A stretch of DNA of 35,613 nt from Bacillota bacterium. Lineage in GTDB: Bacteria > Bacillota_I > Bacilli_A > Izemoplasmatales > Hujiaoplasmataceae. The notes beneath the pieces were generated by a model. The model was not told the origin of the DNA and did not search any database. It saw only the letters and a program-made list of their open reading frames with translations. Of this stretch, positions 24,155-28,912 are shown piece after piece (positions within the stretch are counted from its first letter, which is position 1; the number at the start of each line of letters is the position of its first letter). Location: assembly GCA_022710895.1 (NCBI GenBank), contig JAKLGB010000005.1:1-35613 (forward strand), read 5' to 3'. Both the position numbers and the translations under genes were made by a program.

Positions 24155-25750
24155 TTACTTTCTCTTGATTATGTGATCGGCCGCCAATTTTCCGGTCAAG
24201 ATCGATACCGGTAATCCCGAAGGGGAGAATGACCATTGTCCCGCCTGAAGAATTCCGGGGATTGGTGTGTTGACAGCCTTCGCGATTTTTTGAAATCCAT
24301 CCAGTACCGGCCGTTTGGAATCTGTGAAGGACCAGCCCGTGATGGCTCCCCCGGCGTTCTTGGTCCATTTTTCAATCGATAACGGCGTGGCGGAAATCAC
24401 GTCGATGATTTTTGCCTTCAACCCGGGAATTAAGGTTCGATCGAGGATCTCGATGATATGGTTTTCGCAGAACCGTTTATAATCTTCATACCATTGATGA
24501 CGGGCAATATGAGAAACCAGCGAGTAATCGACTAGGGTGCTGACGATGATCCCGGTTTTACCTTGCGGAGCCAACTCAGAGTATCGCATCGCGGGAATGG
24601 ATATTTCGTAAGTGGTGTTTTCCAAGTAAGTGAGCATCCATCGTTGCAGGTCAGACTGCGAATCCGTGAAATTACCGTCCGGGGTTTGGATCAGGGAAAG
24701 CGGTGAAGCGGACAACCCGATCAGCGAGGGAGTGAAAAACATATGCGCTCCGACGATCTTTCCGATTTGATCGGCGGGAAGATCCACGGACACAAACAGG
24801 GAGTGAACCGAATCACCGGGGTTACTTTTTTCCACTCGTTGCTTTTGGTCGGTAAATTCGGATTTGATGGACTCCGATTGCGATGGTTCGGGTCGAAGGG
24901 AACGGTACAGACTTTTGGAATCCGCAGCCCAAATCAACGAGCCATAGGAATATCGTTTCCCATCGCTTGTTTCGATGTTGCGGTTTTGCGGATCAACGGT
25001 CACGACTTCGGTTCGGGTGGCGACCTCGCCCCCGTGGGCAAGGATATCTCGGACCAAAACATCCGCTAAAGTTCCCATCCCGCCCCGAGGATAATAATAG
25101 TCCAAGTAGAGACTGAAATAACTGAGGGCGAAAAAGGCCGGGGTGCCGCGGAAGAAATGTTGAGCGATGACATCGATCAACGCTTGGTTCCGTGTGAATC
25201 GACGCAAATGATTCTGAATCGGATCTTTCAGTTTTGTCGCTTGTCGGATGTTGCGCCCATATCGAAACAACCATGGTATGACTTCTTTAAGAAAATACTT
25301 CCGATCTTTTTTGACGTCCAAAAAATATGGATTGTCAATTCCGTACAAAACATCCATGTATCCCATGACTTTTCGAATCTCTTCGACAATCGCGGCGATG
25401 TCGCTAAGGTTCTCGGGAAACAGCTTACCCAACATTTTTCCATATTCGTCCAGACTTTCCTTGCCCGTCAAACGAATGACCTGATCCCGAACTCGAATGG
25501 AAACCGGACTTTTGTGAAATTCAATGGGAATGTCCAACTGCCGAAGCATGGGAAAGACGATTCCGGAATTCTCCATCGCCCGGATTCCTCCGTCAAACAG
25601 GAAACCGTCCTGAGTGAACGAGTTCACCAGGCCTCCGACTTTTTCCGCTTGTTCGCAAATCAAGATTTTCTTATTGGCGCGGGCAAGATAGGCTCCGCTG
25701 GTCAGCCCGGCAATCCCGGAACCGACGATGATCGCATCATAGGTCACCAT
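24155..25750 (-). CDS. Phytoene desaturase/retinol saturase-like FAD oxidoreductase, third gene of the operon
   Basis: The 531-residue flavoprotein begins with a dinucleotide fold (IIVGSGIAGLTSGAYLARANKKILICEQAEKVGG; key GxGxxG glycines, then Glu binding FAD ribose). It ends with the FAD-binding block ILQAGQWSFSPSGLPVSILTGKLAADHI (key A, G, Q, P, G), as in the CrtI/retinol saturase family. There is no membrane helix. The gene starts 2 bases after the stop of a second, larger flavoprotein of the same family and GAGG lies inside that gene's end, so the two are coupled. They may act on the same lipid-like or isoprenoid substrate, perhaps as a complex. No crtB, crtE or other carotenoid gene is in the window, so the substrate is unknown. 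Confidence 0.8.
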   Translation of the reverse strand: MVTYDAIIVGSGIAGLTSGAYLARANKKILICEQAEKVGGLVNSFTQDGFLFDGGIRAMENSGIVFPMLRQLDIPIEFHKSPVSIRVRDQVIRLTGKESLDEYGKMLGKLFPENLSDIAAIVEEIRKVMGYMDVLYGIDNPYFLDVKKDRKYFLKEVIPWLFRYGRNIRQATKLKDPIQNHLRRFTRNQALIDVIAQHFFRGTPAFFALSYFSLYLDYYYPRGGMGTLADVLVRDILAHGGEVATRTEVVTVDPQNRNIETSDGKRYSYGSLIWAADSKSLYRSLRPEPSQSESIKSEFTDQKQRVEKSNPGDSVHSLFVSVDLPADQIGKIVGAHMFFTPSLIGLSASPLSLIQTPDGNFTDSQSDLQRWMLTYLENTTYEISIPAMRYSELAPQGKTGIIVSTLVDYSLVSHIARHQWYEDYKRFCENHIIEILDRTLIPGLKAKIIDVISATPLSIEKWTKNAGGAITGWSFTDSKRPVLDGFQKIAKAVNTPIPGILQAGQWSFSPSGLPVSILTGKLAADHIIKRK

Positions 25751-25752
25751 GA

Positions 25753-27624
25753 TTATTTTTCCTCAAGAGTATGTTGATGTTCCGCAACGAACACAAGGAC
25801 CTTTTTTATTTCGACGGGGTCTTGGTATTTCACGGTTCGGATACACCGCTTCTCGCAGGCCGAAAGCAGTGCGTCGCGTTGATCGGCTTCAGAAGGTAAA
25901 ACGGAACACAATCGTTTGGCCCCCGTGAAATTACCGACCACAACCCGCCGCAAAATCCCGCGAACGTCTAACTCAGTTCCGCGAGAACAAGTCGGGTGTT
26001 CGCAATTGTCACATTTCCACGCCGCCAACCGGACGGATTTTTGCGGCTCGGGATCATCCAAGAATAATTGGTCTTTCGTGAAAGGATGCGGGAGCGTCTG
26101 AACATACGATTTCATTCCCTCCCTGTAGACGTACGGTTCACGGTTACGATCCTTAAGAATGGCGTTGGCTGCGGATAACCCAGAGACCGTGACCGCTGGG
26201 GTCCCGGTTCCCATCACGGTGGACTCCCCGCAGAAAAACAGGTGATTCCAACGACTCCGCGTATGCAATCGTTTGAACATATGCTGCCCCAACTTCTGTT
26301 TGGGCCCGGCGACGGAACCGTTGTTCTTGTTGGTATATCGTTCGATCGTCAATGGGGTGGCAACTTCTGCGTAACGCAATCCGGAACGGATATTCGGGAA
26401 TCGCCGTTCCAAGACCGACAGAAGACGTTCCTGTTCCCGGTGTTTCTTTTCTTTGTAGTCTTTGGCATCGCTACGATCCCATTTTTCCAAACTCGGCCCG
26501 ATGGCCAAAACAACATGGGTTCCTTCGGGGCAAACCGTGCGGTCGTCAATGGAGGGGATGTACACGGTTACTTCGCTCTCGTCAATCCGGTCGGGATTGC
26601 CGACGAGCATTTCGACGGGAACCGTGTTTTCGGGAATCACGGTATGATCCACAAGGGTGTAAAGAACAATGGAGGGATAGGTCGGTTCGAGTTTCTTGAC
26701 CCAATCGACTTCCTTGGGTTTCAACAACGAGGGTTCGATCAGTTTTCCCATCAGGTTCCAAACCGTTCCTGAATAGATGATGTCCTCGGCGAAGTGCCGA
26801 GTCCCATCTTTCAGTTCGACGCCGATCGCTTTTTGACCGGAGAACAGGATGTGAGCGACTTCGCTTTCCATCCGTAAAGCTCCGCCGTTTTCTTCAATCA
26901 CCTTTTCCAGTTTGCCCGTGAGAAAAACCGTGGATCCGCAAGGATAATAACTTCCGCCAAGATGGTTGTCGACAAACATCACGGCCGCCAACACCGCCGG
27001 GCTTTCGGCGGTCGTCGTATAACAATAGGTCGACGTCAATTTATCGAAGAATTGAAACAACCTCGGATCGCGGAAATATTTCTTCAAAACATTTTTTACG
27101 TTCTTATTTAAATAGCTGAGGAATTTCAAATAGGACAGCGGGTGGGCCAACATGCTTTTCAGTGCTTTACGTGGATCGGTCTCATCCGGGGTGGTGAATT
27201 GTTTGTTTTCCATCATGACATGCTGATAGAGTACCGACAAATCGGCATAAAAACGACGAAGGTTTTCACGCTCGGTCGGAAACACGGTTCCGAGTTCCTC
27301 GACGAAACGATCGAGGTCGGCGTGGAAAGGAATCGGCGTGTCGCGGAACCGAACAACGTAGAGCAAGTCGTGCTTGATCATTGAGATCGGTTCTTCAAGC
27401 GAATCAAACACAAAACGATGGGGATTGAACCCTTTTTCCCCGAACCCAAACAACATCGAGGATCCTTGATCAAAAATGACTCCGTTCCGTTTAAAAGTCC
27501 CGCAGGATCCACCCGGATTGTAGGCTTTATCAAAAAGCAGAACCTTCAACCCGCGTTTTGTCAATAAAGCTCCGGCCGTCAGACCCGAAAGCCCGGCGCC
27601 GATGATGATGACATCGTTATTCAT
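25753..27624 (-). CDS. CrtI-like FAD oxidoreductase with C-terminal cysteine-rich domain
   Basis: The first ~490 residues are a phytoene desaturase/retinol saturase-like flavoprotein: IIIGAGLSGLTAGALL...LFDKAYNPGGSCG at the start, and FFCGESTVMGTGTPAVTVSGLSAAN near residue 470 as the C-terminal FAD block. The extra ~90 residues carry Cys538, 541, 546, 573, 590 and 594. The spacing CxxCxxxxC, followed by a helical stretch (GILRRVVVGNFTGAKRLC) and CxxxC, recalls the N-terminal Fe-S domain of GltD and dihydropyrimidine dehydrogenase. An electron-transfer role for the tail is inferred. The start follows GAGGG, 4 bases after the uvsE stop, and the gene is coupled to the second flavoprotein. Confidence 0.8.
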   Translation of the reverse strand: MNNDVIIIGAGLSGLTAGALLTKRGLKVLLFDKAYNPGGSCGTFKRNGVIFDQGSSMLFGFGEKGFNPHRFVFDSLEEPISMIKHDLLYVVRFRDTPIPFHADLDRFVEELGTVFPTERENLRRFYADLSVLYQHVMMENKQFTTPDETDPRKALKSMLAHPLSYLKFLSYLNKNVKNVLKKYFRDPRLFQFFDKLTSTYCYTTTAESPAVLAAVMFVDNHLGGSYYPCGSTVFLTGKLEKVIEENGGALRMESEVAHILFSGQKAIGVELKDGTRHFAEDIIYSGTVWNLMGKLIEPSLLKPKEVDWVKKLEPTYPSIVLYTLVDHTVIPENTVPVEMLVGNPDRIDESEVTVYIPSIDDRTVCPEGTHVVLAIGPSLEKWDRSDAKDYKEKKHREQERLLSVLERRFPNIRSGLRYAEVATPLTIERYTNKNNGSVAGPKQKLGQHMFKRLHTRSRWNHLFFCGESTVMGTGTPAVTVSGLSAANAILKDRNREPYVYREGMKSYVQTLPHPFTKDQLFLDDPEPQKSVRLAAWKCDNCEHPTCSRGTELDVRGILRRVVVGNFTGAKRLCSVLPSEADQRDALLSACEKRCIRTVKYQDPVEIKKVLVFVAEHQHTLEEK

Positions 27625-27628
27625 GTTG

Positions 27629-28912
27629 TTATCCCTCGCGTTCGGTTGGTGTCAGTTGTTCCTTTTTGACGAAGAAGTACGAATGAATCAAATAATCCAC
27701 GTGATGTTGCCACGCCAGATCCCAGAAAAATCGCTTAGCGGAATCGATGGAAAGCGCCCCGTTTCGGCATTTATCCATTTTTTTATTGATTGTCTTTTTT
27801 TCGGTTTCGGATGCAAGATCCTTAAAGTATCCGGCTACGTGTTCCAAAGCATTCATCGAATGGCCGAGATAGGCCGGTTTTTCCAAAGCTCTTTCGATCC
27901 ATCGATAAAAGTTCAAAACCGGATATGTGTTCTTTTCTTTAAGTAACCCTCGAATGGCTTGGTATGCTTGCGGATCCCTTTCCAAAACCAGATACTTGTA
28001 CCGCGCCCACTCATCTTCGAGGTGCTTAATTTCCCGATCGGGACGAAGACAGTTCCAACATTTGACCGCGGACCAGTTCTTGTCTTTGACCTCGAGCATG
28101 ACGTCGGCGTCGACGATTTCTCCGACGAAGTCCAAAAATGGGTCGATTGCGATCGTGAAAGAATGGGATCCACGTTGCTTGGATGGATCTTGTTGTGAAT
28201 AGTGCAATTTTTGCTTTCCATCGGCGGCTTTCCAAGTTTTCCCTGCTTCCATCACCCATTCGGATTCCGTTTTGGGGTCTGCGGAAGGATTGATTTCATG
28301 GTGTAGATTGTCAAAAACGGCAGGAATCCCCAACTCATTGGCAATTCTCAAAACTTCCTGAATGGTGAAGGACCGGTCGTCGTTCTCGATGATCAGACGT
28401 CTCCTTACCGCCTCGGGAAGTCCTCGATGATGATCGATGAAACGACGAATGGCCGCCTCCCGATCTCCATATGTGCCGCCCACATGCAAAATGATCTTTG
28501 ATGTGGCATCGGTTTCCAACGCATCCAAAACCTTCCCGTGGTAAATCAAGTCCTCGATCGATCGGGAAACCACGTCGGGGTTCGGCGAGTTCAAGACGGT
28601 ATACTGCCCCGGGTGCATCGAAACACGAATTCCGTAATCGTGGATTTTTTGTCCGATCTGCCGGAATTTTTCGGCATATTCTTCCGCCCAAGAAACAGGA
28701 TTTTCGGGGCTTGAACCGAATGGAATCAGATCGGATGTAATCCGAAACAACCGGATGCCCATGGAATGGTTATATTCTGTGACCCGTTCCAAGGCGTCCA
28801 AGTTTGCGGCGATGATTTCCCGCATTTTCGAAGGCGTGATATCCTTCTGCCTCAGTGTTCGATATTCCGTTCCCGGAACACCGAGGGTCAAGCAGGCATA
28901 TCCGATATTCAT
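27629..28912 (-). CDS. uvsE: UV DNA damage endonuclease UvsE with C-terminal extension
   Basis: The 427-residue protein has a UvsE/UVDE TIM barrel (residues 1-~290). Blocks are MNIGYACLTLGVP, FRITSDLIPFGSS, SMHPGQYTVLNSP, ILHVGGTYGD, LIIENDDRSF, PAVFDNLHHEINP and the metal-site segment DADVMLEVKDKN. It nicks DNA 5' of UV photoproducts and other lesions. Residues ~295-415 (EWARYKYLVLERDPQAY, HSMNALEHVAGYFK) resemble the DUF1722/YbgA domain; that resemblance is by eye. The ATG follows GGGGAG, with a consensus-like promoter upstream. It is the first gene of an operon with two FAD oxidoreductases (4-base gap). Confidence 0.94.
   Translation of the reverse strand: MNIGYACLTLGVPGTEYRTLRQKDITPSKMREIIAANLDALERVTEYNHSMGIRLFRITSDLIPFGSSPENPVSWAEEYAEKFRQIGQKIHDYGIRVSMHPGQYTVLNSPNPDVVSRSIEDLIYHGKVLDALETDATSKIILHVGGTYGDREAAIRRFIDHHRGLPEAVRRRLIIENDDRSFTIQEVLRIANELGIPAVFDNLHHEINPSADPKTESEWVMEAGKTWKAADGKQKLHYSQQDPSKQRGSHSFTIAIDPFLDFVGEIVDADVMLEVKDKNWSAVKCWNCLRPDREIKHLEDEWARYKYLVLERDPQAYQAIRGLLKEKNTYPVLNFYRWIERALEKPAYLGHSMNALEHVAGYFKDLASETEKKTINKKMDKCRNGALSIDSAKRFFWDLAWQHHVDYLIHSYFFVKKEQLTPTEREG

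Follow-up and report, generated by a model that had tools for sequence, protein, structure and literature searches.

In the desaturase CRTI, FAD is the sole redox cofactor, and oxygen or quinones act as acceptors; the dehydrogenase is fully inactive under nitrogen in the absence of quinones, and benzoquinones are better than naphthoquinones. The carotenoid isomerase CRTISO catalyzes a non-redox reaction, yet requires reduced FAD (both enzymes according to the part of PMC3382138 available). Eubacterium limosum (Eubacteriaceae) has working crtM and crtN genes, and makes no carotenoid under strict anoxia, as reported in the available text of PMC11611032. CRTISO-like proteins are known from Spironucleus and Brachyspira, anaerobic hosts featuring no carotenoid synthesis. 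In the accessible part of PMC6397501 no Fe-S tail is described for these proteins, which are compared here by description only.

Fe-S domains at the N-terminus of reductases are typical of the GltD-like module found in NfnB, GltS-beta and DPD, in which PF14691 is associated with a FAD/NAD(P)H domain. In DPD, electrons move from FAD to the cluster nFeS2, then to nFeS1, and finally to the ferredoxin-like domain. nFeS2 carries a Gln ligand in DPD and a Glu ligand in GltS, the potential of GltD-type clusters is low to very low, and those of GltS also hold subunits together (PMC8097209, for the portion available). IsrA, a putative isoprene reductase of Acetobacterium wieringae, is an anaerobic flavoprotein with PF14691, for which reduction of isoprenoid C=C bonds has been proposed. 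It features a GltD-type FAD/NAD(P)H core and four [4Fe-4S] clusters, and no CrtI-type core is described in the accessible text of PMC10134865.

A gene joining elements of both kinds was found in the window, i.e. the whole stretch of 35,613 nucleotides analysed here. The encoded protein, called A, has superfamily and fold in common with the CrtI, CrtD and CrtN desaturases. CRTISO provides the nearest profile to the whole core, but the corresponding model ends before the tail, and A scores far below its cut-off. A shares with NfnB, GltS-beta and DPD the predicted tail fold and a four-cysteine site; unlike in these, the Fe-S domain is C-terminal to a CrtI-type core, has the ligands of one cluster and is not accompanied by a NAD(P)H domain. 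A resembles IsrA as an anaerobic flavoprotein with PF14691 that may act on isoprenoid double bonds, and differs from it in the core and in cluster number. The likeness to the Spironucleus and Brachyspira proteins resides in the occurrence of a carotenoid-isomerase-like enzyme where the pathway is missing. No description of a GltD-type Fe-S tail on a CrtI-type enzyme was found in the literature searched, most subscription journals lying outside it. Both parts are already known; the combination of a CrtI-type core with a GltD-type tail, and the trimming of the latter to one cluster, are new. The features of the locus are the following:

25753-27624, minus strand: protein A, 623 aa, carotenoid isomerase/desaturase-type flavoprotein with a Fer4_20 tail (ORF, profiles, homologs)
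26155..27624, minus strand: FAD/isoprenoid-enzyme core, residues 1-490 of A (Pfam Amino_oxidase, TIGR02730, 4rep fold match)
25771..26031, minus strand: degenerate Fer4_20 (GltD/DPD-type Fe-S) domain, residues 532-618 of A (profile, hhalign, predicted fold)
25987..26013, minus strand: C538, C541 and C546 (CxxCxxxxC), three of the four invariant predicted cluster ligands (28/28 rows)
25843..25845, minus strand: C594, fourth invariant predicted cluster ligand (28/28 rows)
25855..25857, minus strand: C590, apparent remnant of the ligand set of a second, lost cluster (15/26 A rows with Cys)
24155..25750, minus strand: protein B, second CrtI-like flavoprotein, 531 aa, starting 2 nt after the A stop
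27629..28912, minus strand: UvdE-type UV endonuclease with C-terminal DUF1722, its stop codon 4 nt before the A start

Core and tail of protein A

The core is of the flavin amine-oxidase type (Pfam Amino_oxidase, residues 12-490; NAD_binding_8, 57.4 bits), and features the FAD Rossmann start GAGLSG at residues 9-14. The nearest NCBIfam profile is carotenoid isomerase (TIGR02730, carot_isom, 493 positions), which matches residues 4-489 with 275.8 bits, about 300 bits short of the curated equivalog cut-off of 586.9 bits. CrtD and CrtI rank next, and the score of crtI_fam (TIGR02734), 149.7 bits, is below the cut-off of 238.1. The cores of relatives also match carotenoid isomerase, with 227.1 bits in a fused relative and 279.6 bits in Acetobacterium. 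The model of the full-length protein (pLDDT 80.5, pTM 0.85) has the CrtI fold, the PDB entries 4rep (Z 32.5, 461 residues aligned, rmsd 3.0) and 4dgk (Z 23.0) being matched. By both Rossmann start and fold, the core of A belongs to the CrtI-type flavoprotein superfamily. A preliminary description of this DNA had placed the end of a desaturase-like core at about residue 490, and the Pfam and NCBIfam matches end precisely there, at 490 and 489.

The PDB matches listed for the full-length model span residues 1-510 alone, and the tail was therefore folded separately. Searched with phmmer against PDB sequences, the tail gave chance matches only, so that profile and fold routes were needed. The tail alone matches Fer4_20 just over the Pfam cut-off of 25.8 bits (25.9 bits, E 8.8e-6), as it does when the genome is searched in six frames (26.0 bits); scored inside the whole protein, the match falls to 22.9 bits, below the cut-off. 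Fer4_20 is under the cut-off in whole A proteins, down to 12.9 bits in the member denoted G1312, and for the homolog L008 is not among the Pfam matches at E 0.01 or better. Profile-profile comparisons by hhalign of 26 A tails gave E 1.9e-5 against GltD from the same genome, and E 7e-10 against a fused relative with intact tail. Together with the conserved cysteines described below, these matches exceed what chance would produce.

The tail-only model, obtained from four sequences and no templates, has pLDDT 75.1 and pTM 0.66. It superimposes on the Fe-S domain of NfnB (4ylf_B; Z 10.0, 91 residues aligned, 2.5 A) and on glutamate synthase beta (6s6s_E; Z 9.6, 98 aligned, 3.3 A). DPD entries gave Z 7.8-8.3, but at a high rmsd, close to 10 A. 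Next come further helical Fe-S domains (Z 5.2-7.0); unrelated folds did not exceed 2.8. Foldseek retrieved the same families (NfnB, GltS-beta, DPD) with probability 1.00, the E-value of 0.2 at best being weak. The loop 541-550, which would surround the cluster, is modelled with low confidence both in the full-length protein (mean pLDDT 54) and in the tail (64). Taken as modelled, the tail has the fold of the N-terminal Fe-S domain of NfnB, GltS-beta and DPD. The preliminary description had compared the tail to GltD and DPD, and had proposed profile search and structure prediction as checks; the Fer4_20 match of the isolated tail and the predicted fold both bear the comparison out. A third match to Fer4_20 in the genome of the window (G000:C61:2231-2344) is partial, and covers model positions 10-49 with 26.6 bits.

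Cluster ligands and fused relatives

Cysteines in the tail of A are arranged as C538-xx-C541-xxxx-C546, followed by C574, C590 and C594, in agreement with the CxxCxxxxC motif and three more cysteines first reported from the sequence. They were compared among 32 A-like ORFs, four of which were excluded from the alignment: L101 and L102 lie at contig ends, L104 misses the N-terminal half and L097 has unread bases. The alignment has 28 rows, 26 of which are full-length A proteins and two are fused relatives; six rows are the window protein or copies already entered as L005-L009. C538, C541, C546 and C594 are the only tail cysteines invariant in 28/28 rows. All four are found in the excluded L104, and three in L097, where the fourth is unread; they are also present in the G1312 member, which is included in the core tree and lies outside the 28-row count. 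C574 is not conserved.

By spacing, the four invariant residues map to DPD C79, C82, C87 and C140, which we take to be the nFeS1 ligands; those of nFeS2 are presumably C91, C130, C136 and Q156. At the columns of nFeS2, the fourth Cys of the first motif and the equivalent of C130 are found in 0/26 A proteins, and the Gln/Glu position is hydrophobic in 26/26, hosting neither residue in any. Only the C136-equivalent, C590, is still Cys, in 15 of the 26 rows. In both fused relatives the two ligand sets, nFeS2 included, are complete. Set against the order of the DPD path, these columns indicate that A lost the cluster facing FAD and kept the one facing the partner. The tail is predicted to bind, very probably, a single [4Fe-4S]-type cluster. 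The notion of an Fe-S relay, advanced in the preliminary description, is accordingly retained in part: the ligands of one cluster are present throughout, but a full relay is not, as three of the four nFeS2 ligand positions are gone in 26/26 A proteins.

The fused relatives, L103 in G479 and L100 in G571 (40% identity), keep an intact Fer4_20 (83.6 and 83.7 bits). In L103 this is followed by a short Rossmann segment of GltD type (residues 512-757 against positions 10-256 of NF045663, 107.9 bits) which, judged by length, is without the NAD(P)H part; L100 leaves the contig just as the same segment begins. The FAD/NAD(P)H domain that adjoins the Fe-S domain in GltD-like modules is absent in A, and the GltD-type Rossmann segment was found in the fused relatives only. 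When P0003, a fused relative, was used as query against 400 genomes, two matches were obtained, both of them A proteins, and no further fused relative was found. In a tree of cores only, 27 A proteins form one group (99/98), to which the two fused relatives are sister (99/99); outgroup branches are long, and the root is set by midpoint only. Because relatives with intact two-cluster tails are sister to A, the simplest history suggested by the sequences would be one fusion of a GltD-like module behind the core, followed by trimming. A full module, with two clusters and a FAD domain, would have been joined to the core; of the two clusters only the partner-facing one would remain, after loss of the FAD-proximal cluster and of the FAD domain.

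Upstream of the B gene in the L103 region lies a Rieske oxygenase gene with a VanA-type C-terminal domain (L103:425-1411, plus strand; 89.6 and 53 bits), which suggests an oxygen-using variant of the gene cluster.

Carriers and gene neighbourhood

Around the window genome, A was found in 3/61 genomes, the window genome included, and in a sample of the same phylum in 1/392, which is the window genome itself. Figures are higher in the family of Anaerolineaceae UBA1363 (15/147) and in that of Acetobacterium paludosum (12/40); a sample of the phylum of the latter yielded 2/398, one being A. paludosum itself. Named carriers are Anaerolineaceae UBA1363, Anaerolineaceae WOFB14 and the acetogen A. paludosum DSM 8237. 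In the sample of the Acetobacterium phylum, the G1312 member (L136:8907-10766, minus strand) is a solitary A-type gene with the four cysteines, without B, set between genes of sugar-acid metabolism type.

Neighbourhoods were compared in 32 homologous regions from 30 genomes. A and B are consecutive genes on one strand in 25/32; B is missing from that place in five regions, and the remaining two are cut by a contig end. With respect to A, B is upstream in the fused relatives and downstream elsewhere, and its frame is broken or short in a few regions. A and B are followed in Acetobacterium and some Anaerolineaceae by CrtO (PF18927, 116.8 bits) and a GT2 gene, both of which were detected in 14/32 regions. 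The set CrtM, CrtN, CrtP, CrtQ and CrtO makes up staphyloxanthin-type clusters, which these carriers recall for the presence of CrtO and GT2. Unlike them, staphyloxanthin-type clusters include CrtM; CrtM/phytoene synthase was unmatched in 23/30 carrier genomes, and in the window neither a glycosyltransferase nor CrtO is found near A and B. Both the window and L093 have UvdE adjoining A or B, and partial matches were detected in L087 and L089. An SDR gene adjoins A in L097 and L102, and is near B in L034. No ferredoxin gene was found beside A among the neighbours scanned.

Heliorhodopsin (PF18761) is encoded in 9/30 carrier genomes and in 6/32 regions. In five of the latter the gene and A are immediate divergent neighbours, about 300 bp apart at most, and in the sixth it is one gene off; the regions are L086, L087, L088, L090, L091 and L098, from genomes without a match to phytoene synthase or an over-cut-off match to Blh. 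Heliorhodopsin was not found in the genome of the window, the assembly of which is 81% complete. Zinc-finger-type heliorhodopsins are mostly flanked by carotenoid and UV-repair genes, UvdE among them, and the available part of the source does not mention an Fe-S fusion (PMC8612252). A core of this type that is fused to a reduced Fe-S module, and lies beside genes of light and UV response in oxygen-avoiding bacteria, suggests that carotenoid-like lipid chemistry may be powered without oxygen. Near A or B, Anaerolineaceae (L089, L090, L091, L092, L094, L098) also encode a conserved membrane protein (about 265 aa), and HGW-Chloroflexi-4 a similar-looking one near B (L034:2540-3301). A likeness to TspO/CrtK, seen by eye, was rejected as a basis for a name, since the three members scanned matched no Pfam family at E 1 or lower.

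Phytoene/squalene synthase (PF00494) was found in 7/30 carrier genomes, all from the Acetobacterium family set, and in 0/18 elsewhere; the same model matches 7/14 control genomes. It is thus missing in 23/30 carriers, where single absences carry little weight, several assemblies being incomplete. This sets the context of A apart from that of CRTISO, and a de novo C30/C40 carotenoid pathway was rejected as general context; in most carriers A is therefore unlikely to act on the usual C30/C40 carotene, barring uptake from outside. Blh (PF15461) scored over the cut-off in 0/30 carriers, with one sub-threshold match of 20.7 bits, and in 0/14 controls, so that the sensitivity of the model is unproven here. 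Lycopene cyclase (PF18916) was found in 0/30 carriers against 3/14 controls. On these two counts a conventional retinal route is unsupported.

Possible roles of the tail cluster

A may well be a flavoenzyme of carotenoid isomerase or retinol saturase type, in which a single [4Fe-4S] cluster connects the FAD to ferredoxin. Reduced ferredoxin would pass electrons to the cluster held by C538, C541, C546 and C594, and the cluster would reduce the FAD of the core. The reduced flavin would then either isomerize double bonds of isoprenoid lipids, in a redox-neutral reaction, or saturate them. Together with B, and elsewhere with a CrtQ-type glycosyltransferase and the CrtO acyltransferase, A would make or tune a photoprotective isoprenoid glycolipid in anaerobes. 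Entry of electrons has been ranked over exit because CRTISO needs reduced FAD, and because GltD-type clusters are of low potential and deliver electrons.

Exit of electrons is possible, though a good deal less probable. A would be in this case an anaerobic desaturase, in which the cluster takes electrons from reduced FAD to ferredoxin or to another acceptor replacing oxygen or quinone. The core is in the same superfamily as CrtI and CrtD, the gene lies beside that of a second CrtI-like enzyme and CrtO/CrtQ-type genes, and an anaerobic desaturase would want another acceptor, as CRTI does not desaturate under nitrogen without quinones and E. limosum made no carotenoids under strict anoxia (PMC3382138 and PMC11611032 respectively, both in the parts available). 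Nevertheless, the nearest profile is that of an isomerase active with reduced FAD, the module delivers electrons in GltD-type enzymes, and with clusters of potential as low as described in the accessible portion of PMC8097209 the step would be uphill, unless the potential of the cluster is shifted.

It is unlikely that the cluster is no electron wire, and serves either a structural role or as an oxygen- or redox-sensing switch turning the enzyme off in air. A single cluster deprived of its usual partner is short for a relay, UvdE and heliorhodopsin in the neighbourhood speak of stress and light responses, and clusters join subunits in GltS (PMC8097209, as above). However, the ligands kept are exactly the four of the partner-facing cluster, and much of an electron-delivery module is present in the fused relatives. 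Four cysteines could also hold zinc or form disulfides, the Fer4_20 fold being then merely a scaffold; this is very improbable, since a [4Fe-4S] site is indicated by both the spacing and the fold, both ligand sets are found in the intact relatives, and an acetogen, A. paludosum, is among the carriers. A fusion artefact of gene calling or assembly, conceivable for an incomplete assembly of 143 contigs, is refuted by the tail of the isolate genome A. paludosum DSM 8237, and by its occurrence in 26/26 full-length rows from three bacterial groups, plus a 27th member.

Should A be the ferredoxin-wired enzyme outlined first, the built-in Fe-S wire, along with relatives keeping much of the donor module, would provide a direct handle on the use of CrtI-type enzymes by anaerobes. 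The divergent heliorhodopsin gene makes testable how the chromophore is supplied in anaerobes without a phytoene synthase or Blh match. Just two desaturations (C4-C5, C8-C9) would turn geranylgeranial into acycloretinal. In a bold and quite improbable extension, a retinal-like C20 polyene could be made with neither oxygen nor phytoene synthase, A and B catalyzing the two redox steps and ferredoxin setting the redox state of one of the two flavins through the tail cluster. This reading stems from the pairing of two CrtI-type enzymes, the SDR genes of L097, L102 and L034, the divergent heliorhodopsin gene in five regions, and the lack of matches to phytoene synthase or, over the cut-off, to Blh. 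If true, it would give a source of heliorhodopsin chromophore in strict anaerobes.

CrtI-like genes were also noticed apart from A. A homolog of B is found close to an SDR gene in HGW-Chloroflexi-4 (L034:6001-7575), at a locus without A. In segmented filamentous bacteria, a CrtI-like ORF of 939 aa (L012:6001-8817) features a stretch past the CrtI match and a hydrophobic end.
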